Shown in pieces: positions 6,503 to 17,349 of a stretch of 64,000 nt of DNA. Each line of letters opens with the position of its first letter. Position 1 is the first letter of the stretch. Both the position numbers and the translations under genes were made by a program. The notes under the pieces are model-generated. The model was not told the DNA's origin and did no database searches. It was given only the letters and a program-made list of their open reading frames with translations. Origin of the DNA: Pseudoxanthomonas sp. PXM01 (lineage in GTDB: Bacteria; Pseudomonadota; Gammaproteobacteria; Xanthomonadales; Xanthomonadaceae); the NCBI RefSeq assembly GCF_014851815.1, contig NZ_JACVAJ010000002.1, forward strand, positions 248,001 through 312,000. Direction: 5' to 3'.

Positions 6503-9465
6503 AGGCAGCAGCATCGGACGCCGCCACGGCACGCACCACGTTCGTGCGCTGGATCGGCATCTGGCTGGGGATCGTGATCAGCGCCGGCCTGCTGTTCACT
6601 ATCTTCCTGGACCGTTCGGCGAGAACCGACGCCGCCCGCCGCCAGAGCATGGCGGTGACGATGGGCGTGGACCGGCTGCTGCATTTCGAGATCCGCAACC
6701 TGGAACGCGCCATGCGCGGCATGGCCACCATCGCGGACGGTTACGCCAACGACCACGAGGACCGGAGCCGCTGGGACCTGCCCGGCGAGATCCGCGGCGT
6801 CGTCTCCCGCCATGCGGAACTGCAGGACATCGACCTGTACGACCGGGACGGCCGCGCGATCTACCGCGGCGTCAGCGCCTACGGGCAGGACACCCTGCTG
6901 CTCGACATCCAGCGTGCGCCGCCGCGTGCGCTCAACGTCGGCCGGCTGATCGTCGAAGGACGTGCGGAGCCCATCGTGCCGCTGATGCTGCGCACGCCGG
7001 AAGGCCACTGGCTGGTGGCGCGCCTGCGCACGGCCGAGCTGCAGCGGATGCTGGAAGACCTGGATGTCGGCAAGGAAGGCAGCGTCGGCATCCTCAGCCA
7101 CGACGGCATCGTGCTGGCGCGACGCGGCGCCAGCGGGGCGCACGTGGGGCGGCAGGTCCCGGTGCCCGCCGGCCTGGCATCGGGCGAGACCTCGCAGGTG
7201 GATGTGGTCAGCCGGCTGGACGGCGTGGAGCGCTTCGCGAGTTTCGCCGGCACCAGCGGCTATCCGTTCGTGGTGGCCGCCGGCATCTCGAAACGCGAGG
7301 CGCTGGCGCCGTGGCGGAACTACGCGGTGACCGCCATCGTGCTGCTGGCGCTGTACTGGCTGGGCACGCTCTACCTGATGCGCAGGACCGCCAGTTCGGA
7401 GTCCGCGCGCGACCTCGCCCACGACGAACTGCAGCGGCACGCGGACTGGCTGGCCAAGGCGCAGGAGGCCTCGCAGGCCGGCGTGTGGGCGATGGAACAG
7501 GACAGCGACCGCGTGCGCGCCTCGGCGCATGCCGCGCGCCTGTTCGGCTTCCCGCCGGTGCCCGGCATGCTGCCGCTGGGCGAGTTCTTCGCGCGGATGC
7601 ACGACGACGACCGCGCGCGCGTTGAGCAGGCCTTCGCGGCGTCATGGGAGAACGGCACGCCGTTCCATGCCGAGTACCGCATCCTCCTGCCGGATGGCCG
7701 GCAGCGCTGGATCGACGCCAAGGGCGCGCCGGCCCACGACCCGGGCCAGGTGCCGCGCATGAGCGGCACCATCGTCGATGTCAGCGAGCGCCGCGACCAG
7801 CAGGAACAGCTGGCGCGGGCGGAAGCCCAGTTCCGCGAGCTGTTCGAACTGAACCCGCTGCCGTTCTGGGTCTACGACGTGCACACCCTGCGCTTCCTGG
7901 CGGTGAACGGCACGGCGATCCGCCGCTACGGTTACTCGCGCGAGGAATTCCTCGGCATGACCATCCTGCAGATCCGTCCGCCGGAGGAACACGCCGCGGT
8001 GCTGGCGAGCGTCGAGGAGGCCACCGAACCCGACGATGGGTTGCGTGTGTGGCTGCACGCCACGCGCAGCGGCAAGCGCATCCACGTGCGCATCCACAGC
8101 AGCCGCATCCGCTTCGACGGGCACGATGCGCGCCTGGTGCTGGCGGAGGATGTCAGCGAGCGGGTCGCCTACGAGTACGACCTGGCCTGGCGCGCGGCGC
8201 ACGACGAGAACACCGGCCTGCTCAACCAGCGCACGTTCGTGGAGCGGGTGGAGCAGTTGACGCGGCACGATCCCGAGGCCACGTACGCGGTGGTGTACGT
8301 GCAGCTGCGCGACCTGGAGCTGGTGTCGCCGATGTTCGGGCGGCGCACGCGCGACGAGATCATCGCCGCCATCGCGCGCCGCATCGCCGCGACGGACGGC
8401 GGGGCCGGCCCGGTGGCCTACGTGCCGGCCGATGCCTTCCTGATCGCAGTGCCGCAGGCCGCGCAGTGGGATCGCGTGGTCGACGACCTGCACGCGCTGT
8501 TCGCCGCGCCGGTGGTGTCGGAGACCGGCAGCCACCGGGTGGAAGCCTGGATCGGCGTGGCGTTCCAGCAGCAGCCCGAGCAGAGCGGCGAAGAGGTCAT
8601 CGGCCACGCCGCGCTGGCGGCGCTGCAGGCGCGCACCGAGAACGTGCCGACGATGCACTACACGGACCTGCTGGCGGAAAAGGCGAGCGCGCGCATGGCG
8701 ATCGTCGGCCGGCTGCGGCATGCGCTGGCGAACGGGGAATTCGAGCTGTTCTTCCAGCCGATCCAGCGCATGCGCGACGGCACGGTGGTGTCCGCCGAGG
8801 CGTTGCTGCGCTGGCGCACGCCGGACGGTTACGTGCCGCCGTCGAGCTTCATTCCGCTGAGCGAGGAATCGGGGCTGATCGTCCCGATCGGCGAATGGGT
8901 CATCGAGCAGGCGGCGAAGGCGCAGGCGCGGCTGGTCGCGGCGGGTTTTCCGCAGGTCGCGGTGGCGATCAATGTATCCGCGGTGCAGTTCATGTCGGGC
9001 GCGGTACCACGGCAGATCCGCGAGGCGGCGCGGCGTCATGGGCTGGCGCGCGGTGCGCTGCATGTGGAGCTGACGGAAAGCGCGATGCTGCGGCGGCCGG
9101 ATGCGGCGAAGTTCGCGATGGAGGAGTTGCAGCAGGACGGGGTGTGCGTGTCGATCGACGATTTCGGCACCGGTTTCTCCAGCATGGCCTACCTGCGCGA
9201 CCTGTCGCTGGACCACCTGAAGATCGACCGCAGCTTCGTCGACCACGTGGACCAGGACCCGCGCAATGCGTCGATCTGCCGGGCGCTGATCGCGCTGGGC
9301 AAGGGCCTGGAACTGAGCATCGTGGCCGAAGGCGTGGAGCGCGCGGAGGAGCTGGCCTGGCTGTCCACCCACGGCGTGGAACAGGTGCAGGGCTACTACA
9401 TCGCCCGCCCCGTGCCGCTGGAGGCGTTCATCGCGTGGCTGGAGGCGCCGGTGGAATCGCGGTGA
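6499..9465 (+). CDS. Cyclic di-GMP phosphodiesterase, sensor-PAS-PAS-GGDEF(degenerate)-EAL
   Basis: 988 residues from the ATG that overlaps the upstream stop (ATGA); the open frame runs far upstream but that is overlap with the cyclase gene. One helix at about 17-38, a periplasmic sensing domain (about 40-270, probably of the Cache type), a second helix (about 276-294), PAS domains at about 320-432 and 440-560, a GGDEF-like domain at 565-725 and an EAL domain at 735-980. The GGDEF motif is replaced by PADAF, so no cyclase activity is expected. The EAL motifs are intact: EALLR at 767-771, NVSAVQF, ELTES, IDDFGTGFSS, LKIDRSFV and AEGVE. It should hydrolyse cyclic di-GMP. Co-translation with a cyclase suggests an opposed enzyme pair controlling one local pool. 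Confidence 0.93.
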   Translation: MKAAASDAATARTTFVRWIGIWLGIVISAGLLFTIFLDRSARTDAARRQSMAVTMGVDRLLHFEIRNLERAMRGMATIADGYANDHEDRSRWDLPGEIRGVVSRHAELQDIDLYDRDGRAIYRGVSAYGQDTLLLDIQRAPPRALNVGRLIVEGRAEPIVPLMLRTPEGHWLVARLRTAELQRMLEDLDVGKEGSVGILSHDGIVLARRGASGAHVGRQVPVPAGLASGETSQVDVVSRLDGVERFASFAGTSGYPFVVAAGISKREALAPWRNYAVTAIVLLALYWLGTLYLMRRTASSESARDLAHDELQRHADWLAKAQEASQAGVWAMEQDSDRVRASAHAARLFGFPPVPGMLPLGEFFARMHDDDRARVEQAFAASWENGTPFHAEYRILLPDGRQRWIDAKGAPAHDPGQVPRMSGTIVDVSERRDQQEQLARAEAQFRELFELNPLPFWVYDVHTLRFLAVNGTAIRRYGYSREEFLGMTILQIRPPEEHAAVLASVEEATEPDDGLRVWLHATRSGKRIHVRIHSSRIRFDGHDARLVLAEDVSERVAYEYDLAWRAAHDENTGLLNQRTFVERVEQLTRHDPEATYAVVYVQLRDLELVSPMFGRRTRDEIIAAIARRIAATDGGAGPVAYVPADAFLIAVPQAAQWDRVVDDLHALFAAPVVSETGSHRVEAWIGVAFQQQPEQSGEEVIGHAALAALQARTENVPTMHYTDLLAEKASARMAIVGRLRHALANGEFELFFQPIQRMRDGTVVSAEALLRWRTPDGYVPPSSFIPLSEESGLIVPIGEWVIEQAAKAQARLVAAGFPQVAVAINVSAVQFMSGAVPRQIREAARRHGLARGALHVELTESAMLRRPDAAKFAMEELQQDGVCVSIDDFGTGFSSMAYLRDLSLDHLKIDRSFVDHVDQDPRNASICRALIALGKGLELSIVAEGVERAEELAWLSTHGVEQVQGYYIARPVPLEAFIAWLEAPVESR

Positions 9466-9500
9466 GGGGTCGCCTCAGGCCGGTGTCCCCGTCGCACGCC

Positions 9501-10742
9501 TCACGTGGAGCGTCCCATCTTGACCAGCGATCTGAGCCACGGCGTTTCTGTCGCCAGTTGATCGTCGGGGGTGAACCACAGGCATCCCATCTTCTGCCAT
9601 GCCAGGAGATCCAGCACGTCGTCGTTCGGACGCGTCGGCAACAGCACCGCGAGCCGAGGACGCTGTTCGGGAAAACGGAAGGAATAGGCATACAGCTGCC
9701 CTATCGCCATTCTGACCTGCGCTTCGTGGTCGCTGCTCTTGACCTCGATCAGCAGGTCCCTCCCGCCCACGCCCTTCTCCACCAGCACGTCGTACCTGGC
9801 GTCCCTGTTCCTGCCTTCAAGCAGTTCGAAACGGCCGCGCCACAAGCGCTCGAGACGATTCGTCATCGTGTTGTGCTGTTGACGGGCCTTGATGTCTGAC
9901 GCCTGTGCGACGCGTTTGACATCTTCTTCGTCCTTGAGCGGCAGTTTGGATCCTTCCACCGGCTTGGTGACCAGCACGGATCCCTCGGCCAGCGGGCGCG
10001 CGCGGTTCCGTTTCCCCAGCGCATCATCCCTGTCTGTCACCACCTGTTCCAGGTTCGCCTGATCCAGGTCCACAGCGTCGTGAATGGTGCCGGTGCCGTA
10101 CTGGCTGACCATCACCCAGTACTGCTCTTCCAGAGCCGAGTTGCCTGCGCCGTGGCGCGCCAGCAATGCCTTGATACCGTCCCGGCCATTGATGATGGGG
10201 AATCGTCCGCGGGGATCGAGCGAGAACAGCAAGGGCGTCAGCAGGAACGCCGGATTCATCTCCCGGCTCCCGCTGGGGTCCGGGATGGGAGGCAGCGCGT
10301 CGATGCGCGACGCCAGCTTCGCGCCATCCTTGTCGCTGTCCAGTGTCCTGGCCTTGCGTACCAGCGACCTGATCTCGGCGAGGTTCCTGCGTATCCAGGG
10401 CAGTGCGCTTTTCCTGTAGGCACTGTAGAAGTTGGTGAATCCGGTGTCCTGCCTGACAAGAGCAGGCAGATCCCGCGACCCGATGATTGCTCCGATGTGC
10501 TTCGCGGCATCGGCCAAGGTGGAGTCCTTGGCCAGCTGAGGGAATACATGCCGTAGCCCCGGTAGCTTCGCGCTGGCGACATAGCCAGCCCGCTCGCCGT
10601 CGGAGCTGCGTGTAATCCAGGTGAGCTGACAGAGCCCGTAAATCTGTTCGGCCGTGGGTGTGCCCTGCGCCAGCAGGTGCTTCGCGAAAACACCTATCAG
10701 CCTCTGGGTACGGCGCTGCCGCTCCTTCCATTCCTCTGCCAT
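9501..10742 (-). CDS. Unknown protein with C-terminal PD-(D/E)XK-like nuclease domain
   Basis: 413 residues from the ATG at 10742, which has an AGGAGAG site; the open frame extends upstream to 10916 without support. The N-terminal 270 residues match no family I recognise. Residues 295-365 look like a PD-(D/E)XK nuclease core: D318 in ARYDVLVE, E333 and K335 in LLIEVKSS, and a following helix GQLYAYSF with a conserved Gln. Proteins of this kind include restriction-like and repair nucleases. It lies at the left edge of a nuclease-rich region, which fits a defence role, but the specific function is not known. The cyclase/EAL pair converges on it with a 35-base gap. Confidence 0.65.
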   Translation of the reverse strand: MAEEWKERQRRTQRLIGVFAKHLLAQGTPTAEQIYGLCQLTWITRSSDGERAGYVASAKLPGLRHVFPQLAKDSTLADAAKHIGAIIGSRDLPALVRQDTGFTNFYSAYRKSALPWIRRNLAEIRSLVRKARTLDSDKDGAKLASRIDALPPIPDPSGSREMNPAFLLTPLLFSLDPRGRFPIINGRDGIKALLARHGAGNSALEEQYWVMVSQYGTGTIHDAVDLDQANLEQVVTDRDDALGKRNRARPLAEGSVLVTKPVEGSKLPLKDEEDVKRVAQASDIKARQQHNTMTNRLERLWRGRFELLEGRNRDARYDVLVEKGVGGRDLLIEVKSSDHEAQVRMAIGQLYAYSFRFPEQRPRLAVLLPTRPNDDVLDLLAWQKMGCLWFTPDDQLATETPWLRSLVKMGRST

Positions 10743-10790
10743 GCCGCTCTCCTGTCGGGTCTGCTGTAAGGGTCCGCGATGGGAGGACAT

Positions 10791-10822
10791 CAAACAAGAA
10801 GGCCCCGCGATGCGGGGCCTTC
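10791..10822 (-). terminator. Rho-independent terminator (leftward)
   Basis: Perfect stem AGGCCCCGC / GCGGGGCCT with a short loop (10800-10820), followed in the leftward direction by TCTTGTTTG. It ends the gene at 10843-11316. Confidence 0.8.
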
Positions 10823-10842
10823 GTCGTTCGGAACAGGGAGGC

Positions 10843-11316
10843 TCAGACCTTCGGCGGCGGCGTTCCGGCGATCGGGCGGCGGCGGCTGAAGCGCGAGGCC
10901 AATTCGCGGCGCGCATCGTCCACTGCCTGGTCCTTGCCGGCGACTTTCAGCACGCCGTAGACCTCAAGGGCGGCGGCCATCAGGTCGCTTCCGAGCGCGA
11001 GTTCGGTGTCGAGCATGCGCTGCACGAGGTGGGCGAGCCGTGCCACGCGCGGTCGCAGCACGCTAAGGGCCAGGTGATCCTGGCGGAAGGCGTCGATGTC
11101 GAAGTCGCGCGGCATCACGCCGGCATGCAGTTGGGCCACTTCCAGCGCCTTGTCGCAGAAGGCGCGCGACTTCGTCCCCATCTTCACCAGGTCCTGGCGT
11201 TCGTCGACGGTGAGGCCGATGAGGAGATCGAGGTCGGCTTCGAGGGCATTCAATGAGCCGTCGATGCGTTCCACGCGATCGGCGTCGAAGGTCATGCTGA
11301 TGCGGTTCTGTGTCAT
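10843..11316 (-). CDS. Conserved hypothetical protein
   Basis: 157 residues, mostly helical and charged, no signal peptide. Wording such as GLTVDERQDLVKMGTKSRAFCDKAL and LDTELALGSDLMAAALEVYGVLK recalls a family of small bacterial proteins of unknown function that I have seen in many genomes. No catalytic motif is evident. It has its own terminator downstream and lies just outside the tandem repeat array. Confidence 0.7.
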   Translation of the reverse strand: MTQNRISMTFDADRVERIDGSLNALEADLDLLIGLTVDERQDLVKMGTKSRAFCDKALEVAQLHAGVMPRDFDIDAFRQDHLALSVLRPRVARLAHLVQRMLDTELALGSDLMAAALEVYGVLKVAGKDQAVDDARRELASRFSRRRPIAGTPPPKV

Positions 11317-11414
11317 GTGATTGCGTCCTTTCCGTGGTACCGGCCGGGTCCGGCCGGCACCCGCAGCCTACCCCCGCACACCCCCGCCGCGACCTGTCAC
11401 TTTGCAAGTGAAGT

Positions 11415-11700
11415 AGTTCTCACACTACGGAGTTCGATTGGACGAAAAACATGGACGCGATACCGAAAAACTTCCGGCGATGGAGGAAAAACTCCCAGCG
11501 CTGACCGTTAGTGTGAGAAGAAACACCGAAAAACATGCAACGTTCCACCTAAAACTTCCAACGTTGACCGCTAGTGTGAGAAGAGAGGACGGAAAACTCG
11601 GAACGTTGGACCTAAAACTTCCAACGTCGGATGTTAGTGAGAGAAGAGAGAAGCAAAAACTTGGAACATTGGATGTTTGTGTGAGAAGAGGTGTTCTCCT
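11415..11700. repeat. 63-bp tandem repeat array
   Basis: Three adjacent units of exactly 63 bp (anchors at 11492, 11555 and 11618) plus a partial, deleted fourth unit and a degenerate leader. Each unit carries a TAGTGTGAGAAG block (11509, 11571, 11634 as TAGTGAGAGAAG, and about 11678), and the same block appears inverted at 11416 as TTCTCACACTA. In unit 2, TCCAACGTT (11557-11565) pairs with AACGTTGGA (11602-11610), giving a 9-bp stem. The array is A-rich and unlike the neighbouring genes. Both strands are open across it, but a period of 63 (a multiple of three) makes that uninformative. There are no unique spacers, so it is not a CRISPR array. Confidence 0.85.
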
Positions 11701-11716
11701 CAGCGAAACAGTCCCA

Positions 11717-12595
11717 TCAGTTGTCGTTGAGCCCATTGGGCGCGCGGGTGTGCAGTCGCTCCTTCCATGAACTTTCGACCGCAACCACATCCGGCATCTC
11801 CGTGTCCGGAGACACGCGCTGCAGGATGCTGAAGACAAAATTCGTCGGGTCCAGTCCTCGCAGGAGCCGGTTGCCGCCATGCCCGGAGTCGGCATAGTTC
11901 AACCAGCGGCCCAGCAGGTTCTCGCCGCCGGCCGCAGAACCGACGTAGCGCTTGCCCGACGCGCGATCGAAGATCAGATACACGCCCCGCCACTGGGAGA
12001 GCATGACCCGCCAACTGGCAGGCACCAGGGGCAACTGACTCCAATCGATCACCAGCGACTGCCAGTCGGGCATCGGCGGCACCAGCAGGCTCTCTTCATG
12101 GATGGCATGCACCGGGATCCGGTTCCTGTCCGACCAGCGCCACCAGGAGCGCTCGATGCCCGGCCACTGGACTACCAATCTTCCTTTCCATACCGACATG
12201 ACATCCGTCTGCACCAGATCGAACCACTGCGAATGGTCGCGCTCCTGGGGCCCGCGCGTTCCGAGACTGCGCAGTTCCGCATTACCGGGAATCTTCCAGA
12301 AGTCGCGTGTCGACACCGTTTTTGATCCGGCGACGCCATACAGTCCGACGAACACAGCTCGGCCCGCTTCGTGACCGATGAAGGAAGCCAGATAGCGCGC
12401 CCGCGACAGCGCCTTCTCGACGACAGGGCCGTGGTTTTGCTGGTAAGCATTGAACACGCTGTGACGCTCTGCTGCGAGCCAAGGAAGCACCTTGCGCAGC
12501 TCCCGCTCGGTCGGACGGTGCCGCATGACGAGCACCTCATCAGGGCGGATACCTGCCTTCGCAAGAAGATCGTTGAGTTCGAACACGCCTGACAT
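11717..12595 (-). CDS. GIY-YIG nuclease-domain protein
   Basis: 292 residues. The C-terminal 95 residues form a GIY-YIG nuclease domain: GVYLIF (204-209, the GIY strand), KRYVGSA (215-221, the YIG strand), R230, a glutamate in VAVESSWKERL (E274) and a terminal Asn near 290. These are the expected catalytic positions for metal-dependent DNA cleavage. The N-terminal 190 residues are a separate domain I do not recognise, with many Trp and Arg residues, and may bind DNA or a modified base. The gene is divergent from the MazG/helicase operon, with 124 bases between them, and its 3' end abuts the tandem repeat array. A modification-dependent restriction or defence role is an inference. Confidence 0.8.
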   Translation of the reverse strand: MSGVFELNDLLAKAGIRPDEVLVMRHRPTERELRKVLPWLAAERHSVFNAYQQNHGPVVEKALSRARYLASFIGHEAGRAVFVGLYGVAGSKTVSTRDFWKIPGNAELRSLGTRGPQERDHSQWFDLVQTDVMSVWKGRLVVQWPGIERSWWRWSDRNRIPVHAIHEESLLVPPMPDWQSLVIDWSQLPLVPASWRVMLSQWRGVYLIFDRASGKRYVGSAAGGENLLGRWLNYADSGHGGNRLLRGLDPTNFVFSILQRVSPDTEMPDVVAVESSWKERLHTRAPNGLNDN

Positions 12596-12641
12596 AGAGC
12601 GTTATCCAGGAGAGAGGCGTCGCGGGCGACAAAGCGTCCCC

Positions 12642-12679
12642 GGCAGCCCCACGACGCGTGGCTGCCGTCGCCATATACT
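12642..12679 (+). promoter_or_regulatory. Candidate promoter and operator of the MazG/helicase operon
   Basis: A TATACT hexamer at 12674-12679 lies 40 bases before the start codon and could be a -10 box. Just upstream, GGCAGCCCCACG and CGTGGCTGCC (12642-12665) form an imperfect inverted repeat covering the expected -35 position, so a repressor could bind there. No good -35 hexamer is visible. Confidence 0.35.
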
Positions 12680-12719
12680 CACATTTCAGGGGAGCAAAAA
12701 GACTGAGGAAGGGGTGGAC

Positions 12720-13070
12720 ATGAGCAACGAGGTGCAGGCGCTGCAAACCGCCCTTCGCCAGTTTGCGGAGGAACGGGACTGGGGTCAGTTCCATACCCCC
12801 AGGAATCTGGCGGCTTCCTTGTCCATCGAGGCCGCCGAGGTGCTGGAGCATTTCCAGTGGCTGACCGACCAGCAGAGCCAGGATCTTTCCCCGGAGCAAC
12901 GGGAGAAGGTGGCGCTCGAGATCGCCGATGTCCTGCTCTACCTGCTGCAACTGTCCGACAAGCTCCAGATCGATCCGGTAGAGGCCGCCCAGCGGAAGCT
13001 GGCGTTGAACGCCGCCAAGTACCCGGTCGAGAAAGCCAAGGGCAGCAGCAAGAAGTACACGGAACTCTGA
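12720..13070 (+). CDS. MazG/dCTPase-like nucleotide pyrophosphohydrolase
   Basis: 116 residues from the ATG at 12720, with GAGGAAGGGG upstream; the longer open frame from 12492 is rejected. All-alpha NTP pyrophosphatase fold with the metal-binding pattern ExxE...ExxD: E37 and E40 in SIEAAEVLE, E67 and D70 in ALEIADVLLY. FHTPRNLAASL and EHFQW are closer to the RS21-C6/DCTPP1 (dCTP pyrophosphatase) branch than to housekeeping MazG. It would hydrolyse an NTP or dNTP to the monophosphate and pyrophosphate. It is the first gene of a four-gene operon, 25 bases before the helicase gene. Nucleotide depletion is a known antiviral tactic, but that role here is inferred from context only. Confidence 0.85.
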   Translation: MSNEVQALQTALRQFAEERDWGQFHTPRNLAASLSIEAAEVLEHFQWLTDQQSQDLSPEQREKVALEIADVLLYLLQLSDKLQIDPVEAAQRKLALNAAKYPVEKAKGSSKKYTEL

Positions 13071-13095
13071 CCGCACCGCCAAGGGGAAGGCACGC

Positions 13096-14946
13096 GTGAT
13101 CGTTTACCAAGCGACAAAGACCACGTTCCTAGACGACAACGACAACCGGAACATCGAGGACGTCATCAATGCGGCCTACGTCCAGAAGACGGGTCGATAC
13201 GCGTCCGATGCCGAGTTCAAGTCGTGGGCTGCCTCACTGCGCGAGATGTCGCGGGTTCTTCGCGACCCGCAGATTCCCGACGACATCGGCGTCGGCATTG
13301 AGTTCGGCATCCCGCAGACGGCCATGCGCATCGACTTCATCCTGTCTGGCGCGGACGATACGGGAACGCCCCATGTCGTGATCGTCGAACTAAAGCAGTG
13401 GTCGACCTCGAAGCTCAGCGACAAGGATGGCCTCATCGTCGCCAATCGCGGCGGGCGATCCGAGACGGAAGGCCCCCACCCCAGCTACCAGGCCTGGTCG
13501 TACGCGGCCCTGCTCAACGGCTTCAACGAGGCTGTGTACGAATCAGGCACCGCCCTTCGTCCCTGCGCTTATCTGCACAACTATCGGGATGACGGCATCA
13601 TCCGCGATGCGCGCTATACCCCCTATCTCGACAAGGCACCGGTCTTCCTGAAGGGCGAGGAAGAGCTGAAGCTGCTACGCGACTTCATCAAGAAGCACGT
13701 CAGGAAGGGCGACAAGGGCGAACTGCTCTACAAGATCGAGAACGGCCGCATCCGACCCTCCAAGATGCTGGCCGATAGCCTGGGGAAGATGCTCAAGGGC
13801 AATCAGGAGTTCATCCTGATCGATGACCAGAAGGTCGTTTACGAGACCTGTCTGGCACGGGCCGAACAGGCCAGCGAGACACGAAAGCAAGTCGTCATCG
13901 TCAAGGGTGGCCCCGGCACCGGCAAGTCGGTGGTGGCCGTCAACCTGCTGGTGGCCCTGACGAAGCGCGGGCAGGTCACCAAGTACGTTTCCAAGAACGC
14001 AGCACCCCGTGCCGTCTATGCCAATAAGCTGGCGGGCCAGGTGCGGAGAGTGGAAGTCAGCAATATGTTCTCTGGCTCCGGGGGCTTCCACGAAGCCACG
14101 CCGAACACGTTCGACACGCTGGTCGTCGACGAGGCCCACCGACTCAACGCAAAGAGCGGCTTGTACGGAAACCTGGGCGAGAACCAGGTCATGGAGCTTA
14201 TCCGCAGTGCCAAGTGCACCATCTTCTTCGTGGACGACGATCAGATCGTCACACTGGCCGACATCGGCCACACGAAGGAATTGATCCACTGGGCAAACGC
14301 CGCTGGCGCCGACATCACAACGCTGGAGCTCAGTTCTCAGTTCCGCTGCAACGGCTCAGATGGCTACGTTGCATGGCTGGACAACTGGCTCGGTATCCGC
14401 GAGACCGCCAACACCGACTTCGATCGCGACAGTTTCGACTTCCGGATCGTGGACTCCCCGGTGGAGCTACACGACCTGATCCGCGAGAAGAACAAGATCA
14501 ACAACAAGTCCCGGGTCGTCGCAGGCTACTGCTGGGACTGGAAGAGCAAGAAGGATCCCAACGCCTACGACATCGAGATTCCGGAGTTTGGCTACCGGGC
14601 GCAGTGGAATTTAAGCGTGGATGGCAGCTTGTGGATCACCGCCGAAAACTCTGTTGAGCAGGTTGGGTGTATTCATACCTGCCAAGGATTAGAGCTGGAC
14701 TACGTGGGAGTGATCATCGGCCCGGACTTGGCGCACCACAACGGCCACCTAGTTGCTCACCCGTCCAAGCGCTCAAAGCATGACCGCTCGATTCGAGGCT
14801 ACAAGTCGAAAGCTAAGAAGGACGCCACCATGGAGAGTCGCGCGGACATCATTGTCAGAAACACCTATAAGACGCTAATGACGCGCGGCATAAAAGGCTG
14901 CTTTGTCTATGTAGACCGGGTACACAATGGTCAACAACATGATTAA
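13096..14946 (+). CDS. PD-(D/E)XK nuclease-like / DUF2075 helicase fusion
   Basis: 616 residues from a GTG start preceded by AAGGGGAAGG. The N-terminal 160 residues look like a PD-(D/E)XK nuclease: D80 in MRIDFILSG, E98 and K100 in VVIVELKQWS, and Q132 in YQAWSYA. The rest is a DUF2075 (Schlafen group 3-type) DNA/RNA helicase domain: Walker A GGPGTGKS (271-278), DEAHR (345-349), FFVDDDQIV, LSSQFRCNG, and the C-terminal motif CQGLELDYVGVIIG. It should be an ATP-driven enzyme on nucleic acid with its own cutting domain. The gene is GC-rich up to about 14600 and then becomes much richer in A+T, matching the two genes downstream. It overlaps the next gene by 20 bases. Confidence 0.85.
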   Translation: MIVYQATKTTFLDDNDNRNIEDVINAAYVQKTGRYASDAEFKSWAASLREMSRVLRDPQIPDDIGVGIEFGIPQTAMRIDFILSGADDTGTPHVVIVELKQWSTSKLSDKDGLIVANRGGRSETEGPHPSYQAWSYAALLNGFNEAVYESGTALRPCAYLHNYRDDGIIRDARYTPYLDKAPVFLKGEEELKLLRDFIKKHVRKGDKGELLYKIENGRIRPSKMLADSLGKMLKGNQEFILIDDQKVVYETCLARAEQASETRKQVVIVKGGPGTGKSVVAVNLLVALTKRGQVTKYVSKNAAPRAVYANKLAGQVRRVEVSNMFSGSGGFHEATPNTFDTLVVDEAHRLNAKSGLYGNLGENQVMELIRSAKCTIFFVDDDQIVTLADIGHTKELIHWANAAGADITTLELSSQFRCNGSDGYVAWLDNWLGIRETANTDFDRDSFDFRIVDSPVELHDLIREKNKINNKSRVVAGYCWDWKSKKDPNAYDIEIPEFGYRAQWNLSVDGSLWITAENSVEQVGCIHTCQGLELDYVGVIIGPDLAHHNGHLVAHPSKRSKHDRSIRGYKSKAKKDATMESRADIIVRNTYKTLMTRGIKGCFVYVDRVHNGQQHD

Positions 14947-16501
14947 CTTTCAAGTGTTTGGCATCCAAGAGCGGCCATCCAACAACACAATAAACACAGT
15001 TAGGCTGTCAGCAAACAACTGGGATGACTACTCTTTCAAAACACTCTTCAACTCTTCCATCATTGAATCTTCGGGAGTTCTTACCGATCTGGGATCGGTA
15101 AAGATTGGTTTCGTTGGCCAACCCACTGGCTGGACGCTGCAGAACATCCCACGAAATTTTTTTGAGCTCCCAGACGGCTGGTTCTCGCTCGGCCAGAGCC
15201 CCGATTACTACCAAGCCATCATGAGCCTCAGCGAGCCAGATAGGCTCAATTACTTGCGATCAATGAGAGACGTAGTTTTCAATCCCCACATCCTTGAAAC
15301 GATAGAGAATGAGCAGGTATTCAATAGCTCTCTAACAAGAAATATAAGCACACCACTTATTCGTGGACAATTCACAAGAATTGTCCAAGGATTTGCATCA
15401 CTTACCGAGTTCAATTTCTTGTACGCGAGGCCGCAAAGCGAAAGAAAGTCTGGCGTTAACCTAAGTTTTAAAGTTGAAGTTGGATCAAAGCCTTCAACAA
15501 ACATACACGTACTCATCGGACGAAACGGAGTCGGCAAGACGACCATCCTGAATGAAATGATATCGGCCGCAATCGAGCCTAGTTCTCCGGATGGCCCTGG
15601 CCGCTTCTACGAGAACAACGGCATCTTCGGAGTGAGCGAGCTTCCTCCGGACTACTTCAGCGGCGCCGTCTCGGTGTCATTCAGTGCTTTTGACCCCTTC
15701 ACGCCTCCACCAGATAGAAGCGATATCGGGCATGGCCCTAGCTACTGTTACATCGGAATGAAGCAAATGCGCGCAGGCGTCGCGAGCCCAGCCGAGATGC
15801 CACCCAAGACCAGTCGGCAGCTCGTAAATGACCTTGTACTCAGCACTAAGGCGTGCCTAAGCCAATCTGAGCGCAGAAGCCGCTGGGAGAGAGCCATACG
15901 CCGCCTTGAATCGGATTCAAACTTCGCCGATATGGAGTTGGGAAGAATCGCGTCGAACTGGACTGCCGATGATGACTCTAATGAGCGAATAGTTCGCTCA
16001 TTCGCTGAGCGGATGAGCTCTGGTCACGCGGTAGTCCTACTGACCATAAGTCGCCTTATCGAAAAAGTTGAAGAGAAAACCCTGGTTCTTATGGACGAAC
16101 CAGAGAGCCATCTACATCCACCGCTGCTATCCGCTTTCACGAGAGCCCTTTCTGAACTTCTACATGACAGAAACGGAGTGGCGATCATCGCCACTCACTC
16201 ACCAGTAATTCTCCAAGAAGTCCCAAGGTCCTGCGTATGGAAGCTAGATCGAAGGCGGACAAGCGGCCGCAGCGATCGACCAGAGACAGAGACATTTGGC
16301 GAGAACGTCGGAACCCTGACAAAAGAAGTGTTTGGGCTAGAAGTACAGAAGTCTGGCTTTCATGCAGTCCTTACCGACGAAGTCGCTCAAGGAAAGACTT
16401 TTGATCAAATTATGACCGAGTACAAGAATCAGCTCGGAACTGAGGCGACAGCTGTTCTTCTTGCTCTCATTAGAAATCGCGACAACGGTGGCTTCCAGTG
16501 A
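14927..16501 (+). CDS. AAA/ABC-type ATPase, Septu PtuA-like
   Basis: 524 residues (an ATG at 14939 is an alternative start). Walker A GRNGVGKTT (198-206), a signature-like RMSSGHAVVLL (362-371), Walker B LVLMDEPESHLHPP (387-399) and switch histidine in IIATHSPVI (420-428). This is the SMC/RecF-like overcoming-lysogenization type of ATPase used in several defence systems. Walker A is unusually far from the N-terminus: the first 190 residues have no motif I recognise and could be a sensor or an assembly domain. The gene overlaps both its neighbours (20 bases and GTGA). With the HNH gene it resembles the PtuA-PtuB pair of Septu. Base composition is low in GC (25 of 60 in the line starting 15001, by hand count). 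Confidence 0.8.
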   Translation: MVNNMINFQVFGIQERPSNNTINTVRLSANNWDDYSFKTLFNSSIIESSGVLTDLGSVKIGFVGQPTGWTLQNIPRNFFELPDGWFSLGQSPDYYQAIMSLSEPDRLNYLRSMRDVVFNPHILETIENEQVFNSSLTRNISTPLIRGQFTRIVQGFASLTEFNFLYARPQSERKSGVNLSFKVEVGSKPSTNIHVLIGRNGVGKTTILNEMISAAIEPSSPDGPGRFYENNGIFGVSELPPDYFSGAVSVSFSAFDPFTPPPDRSDIGHGPSYCYIGMKQMRAGVASPAEMPPKTSRQLVNDLVLSTKACLSQSERRSRWERAIRRLESDSNFADMELGRIASNWTADDDSNERIVRSFAERMSSGHAVVLLTISRLIEKVEEKTLVLMDEPESHLHPPLLSAFTRALSELLHDRNGVAIIATHSPVILQEVPRSCVWKLDRRRTSGRSDRPETETFGENVGTLTKEVFGLEVQKSGFHAVLTDEVAQGKTFDQIMTEYKNQLGTEATAVLLALIRNRDNGGFQ

Positions 16502-17349
16502 AGCTTCTTCAACCCCCCATCGTCCCTCAGATTGAAATTTTTGATGCATGCAAGAGTTCTGTAACCGACGCCTCATTCACGGCCCGACTAGAGGAATTGC
16601 GACCATATGTACCCCAAATCTCTAACCACTACGCACAACATGCCTCAACAGACTCACTGCACACACTAGTTTCGGCACATCACGGACACCCGGAACAAGT
16701 CATTAGCATCAACCTTACTAAGGGCGACTTAACCAGCCTGTACGAAAAGCACATGGTTAGCAGGTCTCCGGGCAGGGCACATTACGACAATCTATTGCTT
16801 TCAGCGCCGCTTTCGAAGTGCCCGTATTGTGGCTTTGGACAAGTTTCAACCCTCGATCATTTTGCTTCAAAATCAAGGTACCCGCTTTACTCCATAGAAG
16901 CACGCAACCTCGTTCCAGCATGCGCAGACTGCAACAAACTACTCGGTAGCGCTCCGATCACCGAAGACTCGCCGTTCCCCCATCCATATTTTGGAGACCC
17001 AAGAATCGAACGTGATACTTGGCTTCATGCAAGCATTGCTTGCACATCACCAACTACCGTCAGCTATTTCGTGGCATCGCCTGAGACTTGGGACGACCAA
17101 CTAAGGCTAAGTATTGGAAATTACTTCAATGACCTTCAGTTGAAACGAAGATTCGCTATTGAGGGCAACTCAGCCATTGTTGAAATTAGCGACACACTGA
17201 GATTGATGGCCAACTTGGAGGATCGAATTCTTCATCTTAGGTCTATGGCAGCCGTCGATACTTCTCGCAGACGGAATTCCTGGCGAGCAGCCCTGTCAAG
17301 GGCGCTCGCCATTTCACTTCCATATGTCAATGGTGGGTACCTCCAATAG
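16498..17349 (+). CDS. HNH endonuclease, Septu PtuB-like
   Basis: 283 residues from a GTG that overlaps the upstream stop (GTGA). The nuclease core lies at about 105-165: CPYCG (108-112), TLDHFASKSRYP with D120-H121, then NLVPACADCN (137-146) giving the second Cys pair and the HNH Asn. This zinc-ribbon HNH layout is the one seen in PtuB and in nuclease effectors of retron Ec78-like systems. The C-terminal 110 residues are unassigned. Translation coupling to the ATPase suggests the two act as a complex in which the ATPase controls DNA cleavage. The gene ends just before a hairpin, and the core-like region resumes beyond it. Confidence 0.85.
   Translation: MKLLQPPIVPQIEIFDACKSSVTDASFTARLEELRPYVPQISNHYAQHASTDSLHTLVSAHHGHPEQVISINLTKGDLTSLYEKHMVSRSPGRAHYDNLLLSAPLSKCPYCGFGQVSTLDHFASKSRYPLYSIEARNLVPACADCNKLLGSAPITEDSPFPHPYFGDPRIERDTWLHASIACTSPTTVSYFVASPETWDDQLRLSIGNYFNDLQLKRRFAIEGNSAIVEISDTLRLMANLEDRILHLRSMAAVDTSRRRNSWRAALSRALAISLPYVNGGYLQ

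Follow-up and report, generated by a model that had tools for sequence, protein, structure and literature searches.

The tandem array that lies between a gene for a 157-aa protein and a GIY-YIG gene in Pseudoxanthomonas sp. PXM01 poses two questions, namely what such an array does and with which of its neighbours it works. We analysed it within a stretch of 64,000 nt (the window) and compared it with arrays of the same kind in other genomes. The original prediction described 63-bp repeats with internal stems and offered three readings, a structured RNA, a protein-binding array or a site recognised by one of the adjacent nucleases.

The array is built of 21-nt units

Tandem Repeats Finder places a repeat of period 63 at 11488-11673 of the window with 3.0 copies and 78% matches, and a separate repeat search of the window also returned a 63-nt repeat in three copies. 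The 63-bp repeats originally described are therefore real, their true unit however is 21 bp, 63 being three units, and twelve such units make up the array (Table 1). Lag identity within it is 0.64 at 63, 0.47 at 42 and 0.43 at 21. In the palindrome-type units an A-rich linker leads into arms that form an imperfect palindrome centred on an AACGTT core, and the period of 63 bp corresponds for the most part to two of these plus one unit carrying the TTAGTGTGAGAAGA block. GC content is 0.47 in the array and 0.62 in window positions 9001-14000.

The block that had been seen to recur within the array and to stand inverted at its left end does so, with TAGTGTGAGAAG present exactly at 11509 and 11572, with one mismatch at 11635 and 11677, and inverted with one mismatch at the gene-proximal edge (11416-11427). 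Allowing up to two mismatches it occurs 7 times in the window against a chance mean of 1.52, a count of at least 7 being reached in 1/100 shuffles. Both arms of the proposed 9-bp stem also exist (TCCAACGTT at 11557-11565 and AACGTTGGA at 11602-11610), but they bring no unusual fold with them (RNA z of -0.74 on the plus strand and -1.52 on the minus strand). Elsewhere in the window, at 2289-2512, there is a 112-bp repeat in two copies with 90% matches and a REP-like palindrome inside it.

Table 1 Features of the array locus in window coordinates
Feature	Position	Strand	Remarks
157-aa gene, proposed array partner	10843..11316	-	uncatalogued family, KMG[DT]KS-like motif
TGTGAGA element	11418..11424	-	gene-proximal array edge, within the inverted block; 108 nt upstream of the 157-aa start codon
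Array, twelve 21-nt units	11445..11696	+	palindrome-type units and TTAGTGTGAGAAGA-carrying units
TTAGTGTGAGAAGA-block unit	11508..11528	+	same unit type again at 11571, 11634 and 11676
GIY-YIG gene	11717..12595	-	PADLOC UzuA (E 7e-79); neighbour, judged outside the system

Arrays adjoin genes of an uncatalogued family

The 157-aa protein has no credible family in Pfam, NCBIfam, PADLOC or PHROGs (0 families in PADLOC), no transposase or Rep family match in the family searches and nothing credible in a PDB sequence search, and a structure model built from two sequences is helical but of low confidence (pLDDT 52). The gene is under purifying selection, with a median dN/dS of 0.27 over 55 pairs. 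At E 1e-20 its relatives amount to 51 matches in 20/38 Pseudoxanthomonas genomes. There were 0 phage relatives among 50,697 records, none in viral contigs and 1 among 72,556 plasmid records; the homologue carried on a plasmid of Thiodictyon lacks an array within its gaps, and a Bacteroidota homologue used as query gave no plasmid match. A literature search that covered few subscription papers returned no account of these arrays or of the 157-aa protein.

An array with a period of 21 or 22 nt adjoins 46 of 50 family gene copies, upstream in 39 and downstream in 7, the 50 copies comprising 48 of the 51 Pseudoxanthomonas family matches and 2 from Bacteroidota that were found through their arrays. 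Expressed over testable copies the upstream array is present in 39/49, mostly 200-400 nt before the start codon, and with periods of 21, 42 and 63 only, 33/49 are positive upstream and 9/49 downstream. Ordinary ORFs treated alike gave 5/42 upstream, 5/42 downstream and 8/42 on either side, and 25/199 random windows carried an array signal, both kinds of control having been drawn from array loci. Among the four copies without an array two are truncated genes (L242, L248), one lies at a contig end (L264) and one scored 0.536 against a cut-off of 0.55 (L255). Nearly every intact Pseudoxanthomonas family gene tested thus has an adjoining array, and the partner of the array seems to be the 157-aa gene and not the GIY-YIG gene. 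This GC-rich neighbour had been given no role in the three readings of the original prediction.

Orthologues of the window gene have a 21-nt array upstream in 11/12 cases, the twelfth (G023) being a gene truncated at its start; eight of these 11 cis arrays use the words of the window, and three (G008, G001 and G029) use GCCTGACGCGTCAGGC and GGCTCAACACACACTAAGCC in the same layout. Paralogues of the window gene also have adjoining arrays, with other words again. In two Bacteroidota genomes, G100 and G1126, an array lies beside a homologue of 31-34% identity, although as both were found through their arrays they carry no information on the pairing rate in that phylum. A family gene was present at 2/10 Bacteroidota array loci read, several of which are at contig ends. 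In another Bacteroidota genome, G889, two loci (L220 and L226) have 21-nt arrays apparently made of several half-unit words in both orientations, and no family gene was found within about 3 kb of either.

As the array is downstream in 7 copies a promoter role cannot hold generally. A TGTKAGA sequence is located 82-115 nt before the start in 21/49 gene copies compared with 113/2000 random windows, which may mark a promoter or anchor element that family genes have in common, and a search for a sigma-70-like promoter near the window array found none.

Array words follow the protein subfamily

Comparison of 7-mers, with L242, L248, L264 and L271 left out, shows that the arrays of paralogues in one genome have a fraction of 0.026 in common, at the background of 0.028, whereas arrays of proteins at least 70% identical have 0.141. 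Array words agree with protein subfamily with a Mantel r of 0.69, a value reached in 0 of 2000 permutations. On these sequence comparisons array words follow the protein subfamily and not the genome, an agreement that is in part common descent. In some arrays the palindrome has changed, with for example GGTGTCGCGACACC where the AACGTT core would stand, and linker and register are retained.

Words of the window subfamily are also carried by arrays dispersed through the genome. Such arrays were detected in 13/13 genomes that have the window gene (two of these as fragments only) and in 1/25 without it (G027), a co-occurrence with a Fisher value of 2.6e-9 which is uncorrected for kinship and is no clean probability, since the genomes are related and the searches used the same words. 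Ten dispersed arrays were compared in genomes where the cis array uses these words too. Three of them best match their own cis array (G017 0.52, G028 0.50, G037 0.41), and the dispersed arrays of PXM01 and G021 and a second one of G017 have no clear best match to theirs. Several genomes misfit a simple word-by-word recognition: in G029, G008 and G001 the dispersed arrays use AACGTT words and the cis array is worded differently, and G027, which also has dispersed arrays, lacks a close orthologue of the window gene. In Bacteroidota G100 three other arrays, two of them at contig ends, have 0.43-0.58 of their 7-mers in common with the array beside the gene, compared with at most 0.14 between G100 arrays and those of other genomes. 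One array of 24 units in G028 (L162, 2323-2820) unites both word sets of the window locus, its first part being composed of AACGTT/TTCTTCTC words and its second of GCCTGGCGCGAGAGGC/GGCTCAACACAC words.

Dispersed arrays and their distribution

PXM01 itself has four further arrays of the window type, C4:654k, C4:896k, C4:242k and a degenerate one at C6:152k; an additional match at C4:1894713 (L048) was judged by eye to be chance. Searching 100 genomes with array model R1 at E 1e-4 gave matches in 8, PXM01 included, every one a Pseudoxanthomonas, model R2 at E 0.01 matched 13/38 Pseudoxanthomonas genomes, and the exact TTAGTGTGAGAAGA block pattern was found in 13/100 genomes, that is 13/38 within the genus and 0/62 outside it. 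Combining the three, the search of related genomes that the original prediction had called for locates arrays in 14/38 Pseudoxanthomonas genomes, with array lengths of ~120-500 nt.

Beyond the genus, R2 surveys matched 2/395 genomes of the phylum Bacteroidota and 5/295 of the order of G100. In the class to which PXM01 belongs 2/369 matched, PXM01 and a second gammaproteobacterium (G823, L214) whose match is a coding coiled-coil heptad repeat and no array of the present kind. A pattern scan of genome contigs returned 24 stretches, with arrays in three Pseudoxanthomonas and one Prolixibacteraceae, the remaining 20 being considered chance after model search, and the block pattern had no exact match in viral contigs.

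The dispersed arrays have varied neighbour genes and lie in tandem, divergent and convergent settings (by eye), and three of those in PXM01 are kept at orthologous sites in two or three other species. By eye we also noted ORFs resembling REP-associated tyrosine transposases (RAYTs) at L046 1345-1941, L077 1644-2174 and L049 4173-4466, such ORFs being close to at least two dispersed array positions, and REP-like palindromes flank several arrays.

A gene with adjacent repeats and dispersed relatives is also what RAYT/REP systems present: one account (PMC3733652) describes a RAYT gene flanked by palindromic repeats with more repeats dispersed in intergenic DNA. The small protein might in the same way be a selfish element that multiplies its cognate array across the genome. 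The array beside the gene, the dispersed copies with related words and the co-occurrence of 13/13 against 1/25 are in keeping with this. We nonetheless consider it unlikely, in that two or three other species have three of the dispersed arrays at the orthologous site, few arrays are found per genome, the protein matches no transposase family and relatives in phage number 0 in 50,697 records. The present units differ from REPs too, having no constant GTAG/CGTC tag (by eye) and a strict register of 21 or 22 bp, and the 157-aa protein differs from RAYTs in having no transposase match.

Register and helical spacing

A length of 21 or 22 bp is equal to two turns of B-DNA at about 10.5 bp per turn. 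Successive occurrences of the same motif within arrays (AACGTT, GAGAAGA, TCTTCTC or TCGCGA) are spaced by multiples of 21 in 168/168 cases, a count that is not blind given that the arrays were found with period-21 models; the block-pattern search, which is free of any period, gave 30/30. A slip of 1 nt was seen by eye in L083. When periods 17-26 were compared, 21 scored best in 43/49 arrays (L242 among them at noise level) and 22 in L244 and in L272-L275, L267 giving no clear period. L272-L275 form one orthologous subfamily, and their period of 22 is not what a codon-based cause would give. L244 and L267 show 43 and 65, possibly from mixed 21/22 units.

A/T phasing was rejected as the dominant harmonic, the best harmonic being 5 or 6 of 21 in 36/51 arrays and 2 in 2/51. 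Modelled curvature lies above the control median in 49/49 arrays when compared with column-permuted controls and reaches p<0.05 in 22/49, with A-tracts as such also raising it. Against dinucleotide shuffles z is above 2 in 45/51 arrays, a value inflated by the tandem structure, for which reason the column-permuted control was used. Three loci with no usable range (L047, L168 and L170) are absent from the frame, covariation, spacing, phasing, curvature and unit-divergence sets, L212 and L213 are absent also from the covariation, spacing and unit-divergence sets, and the window copy is absent from the unit-divergence set.

Could the arrays be neutral minisatellites, functionless 21-bp repeats grown by slippage or unequal exchange in intergenic refuges and beside the gene by descent? 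They resemble bacterial VNTR minisatellites in their tandem units and in differences of unit number, which varies between orthologous arrays of different species (by eye, with one genome per species), the dispersed arrays stand beside unrelated genes in all orientations, and homogenisation would keep any tandem register. The units are however diverged, with a difference of 18% between a unit and its closest match up to four units away (458 units), and hold the register nonetheless in 168/168 spacings. Unlike VNTRs the arrays are tied to one gene family, 46/50 gene copies being paired against 8/42 control ORFs, with different words, and the period is 21 or 22 in lineages whose words are unrelated. 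On this evidence a neutral origin is quite improbable.

Folding and reading frames

Structured RNA, in the form of transcribed tandem hairpins bound by the protein as a leader or small RNA, was among the readings of the original prediction. Across arrays there are grounds for it, with one strand or both reaching a fold z below -3 in 11/14 arrays compared with 1/28 flanking control stretches, and with the outer palindrome arms pairing above shuffled (97 vs 72 for 7/20 and 102 vs 86 for 8/19, of 162). The window array on the other hand folds like its shuffles, and nothing reached the Rfam gathering score in window 11200-11900 or in five other array loci (two sub-threshold matches there). The inner arms display no covariation, so that hairpin covariation was set aside as proof of RNA or cruciform. 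Both strands fold well in 7/14 arrays, as expected of palindromes, the others favouring one strand, and hairpins need no rigid register. The reading is not supported for the window array, and for the arrays at large we regard it as decidedly unlikely.

That the 21-nt unit is 7 codons of a protein-coding repeat is very improbable. The window array has no stop in the frame of the ORF at 11438-11770, and among the cis arrays with the same words 6/8 are open in the corresponding frame (the window copy, L084, L085, L087, L159 and L164), so that openness alone leaves coding possible there. L088 and L167 however have one stop each, the best frame in the A-linker orientation is open in 22/45 arrays (frames of mixed arrays being not strictly comparable), the conserved unit columns 11-16 are the palindrome core and not codon positions, and the period is 22 in four arrays.

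The neighbouring defence genes

Window positions 11717-17346 hold a defence island with UzuA (GIY-YIG), a MazG-like gene, a Schlafen-group-3 helicase, a PtuA/PDC-M01A-like ATPase and a PDC-M01B-like HNH gene. The original prediction proposed to check whether the repeat tracks the GIY-YIG or MazG-helicase genes, and such a link was not borne out in 55 array loci of about 3-8 kb each: the GIY-YIG gene adjoins the array only in PXM01, G017 and G008, hence beside 3/11 orthologous cis arrays and no dispersed array, and of MazG there is no more than an edge fragment, in PXM01 and G008. In G017 and G008 UzuA is at the same place as in PXM01, and the UzuA-side flank of the array may be an insertion hotspot. 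The cis locus of G022 has distant matches of PtuA-like (25% identity) and HNH (38%) type, which added to the GIY-YIG loci puts defence-type genes near 4/11 cis arrays. That the array serves as target or anti-target for the defence nucleases next to it (the UzuA GIY-YIG or the PDC-M01B-like HNH), the nuclease-site reading first proposed, is scarcely credible when such genes, present beyond the array in these three loci and as distant matches in the fourth, are absent from the other 7 cis loci and from the dispersed array loci read.

A putative two-part system

Of the three readings first offered, the evidence from sequence best favours a protein-binding array. We propose a two-part system made up of the ~157-aa protein and of sites two helical turns apart, with the array as its cis-acting DNA element, an explanation to which we give about even weight for and against. 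Spacing is conserved while words differ between paralogues, and the retention of 21 or 22 bp through a full change of words suggests that the sites must share one face of the helix, as in cooperative binding or wrapping. The 157-aa gene is the natural candidate for the binding protein through its adjacency, purifying selection, helical (low-confidence) model and change in step with the words. We infer that protein and array bind, and observe directly their pairing in the genome and the two-turn register.

Binding of the units along one helix face would be by the protein itself or by a partner that changes specificity in step with it, and could lead to a wrapped or filamentous assembly on the array. 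Such assembly on the cis array may control the promoter of the 157-aa gene itself, and the dispersed arrays might offer the protein architectural or anchoring sites.

Plasmid replication iterons are likewise direct repeats of about two helical turns and are bound by a Rep protein; the present system differs in its chromosomal and dispersed arrays and in the 157-aa protein, which matches no Rep family. By way of likeness rather than membership, the system would work most like ParR/parC, in which, according to one account (PMC5016525), each iteron takes one ParR dimer, the DNA is wrapped by ParR into a superhelix and the complex represses its promoter. ParR/parC and TubR/tubC share with the present system tandem repeats upstream of a small-protein gene (here in 39/49 copies). 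The family loci in contrast to ParR/parC are chromosomal, with several paralogues per genome, dispersed arrays and a binding that here we infer. Clustering of ORFs of at least 70 aa within about 1.5 kb revealed no neighbour, and so no motor gene of the ParM/TubZ type, recurring in at least 3 subfamilies, the one large extra cluster being the antisense of the family gene itself (59/62).

The analysis points to the pairing of the 157-aa family with private two-turn DNA sites as undescribed. A further, more speculative and on balance doubtful extension is that small helical proteins each with a private chain of two-turn sites constitute mutually orthogonal systems of chromosomal addressing or anchoring. 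If true, the words could be replaced wholesale at one locus, satellite arrays would carry the same kind of address, and the whole would correspond to a motorless ParR/parC on the chromosome. The pairing with arrays gives an uncatalogued 157-aa family its first testable function and explains intergenic repeats otherwise dismissed as minisatellites or called repeat ORFs, and the paralogous pairs, in which protein and words change together, are a possible system for how DNA-binding specificity is rewritten.
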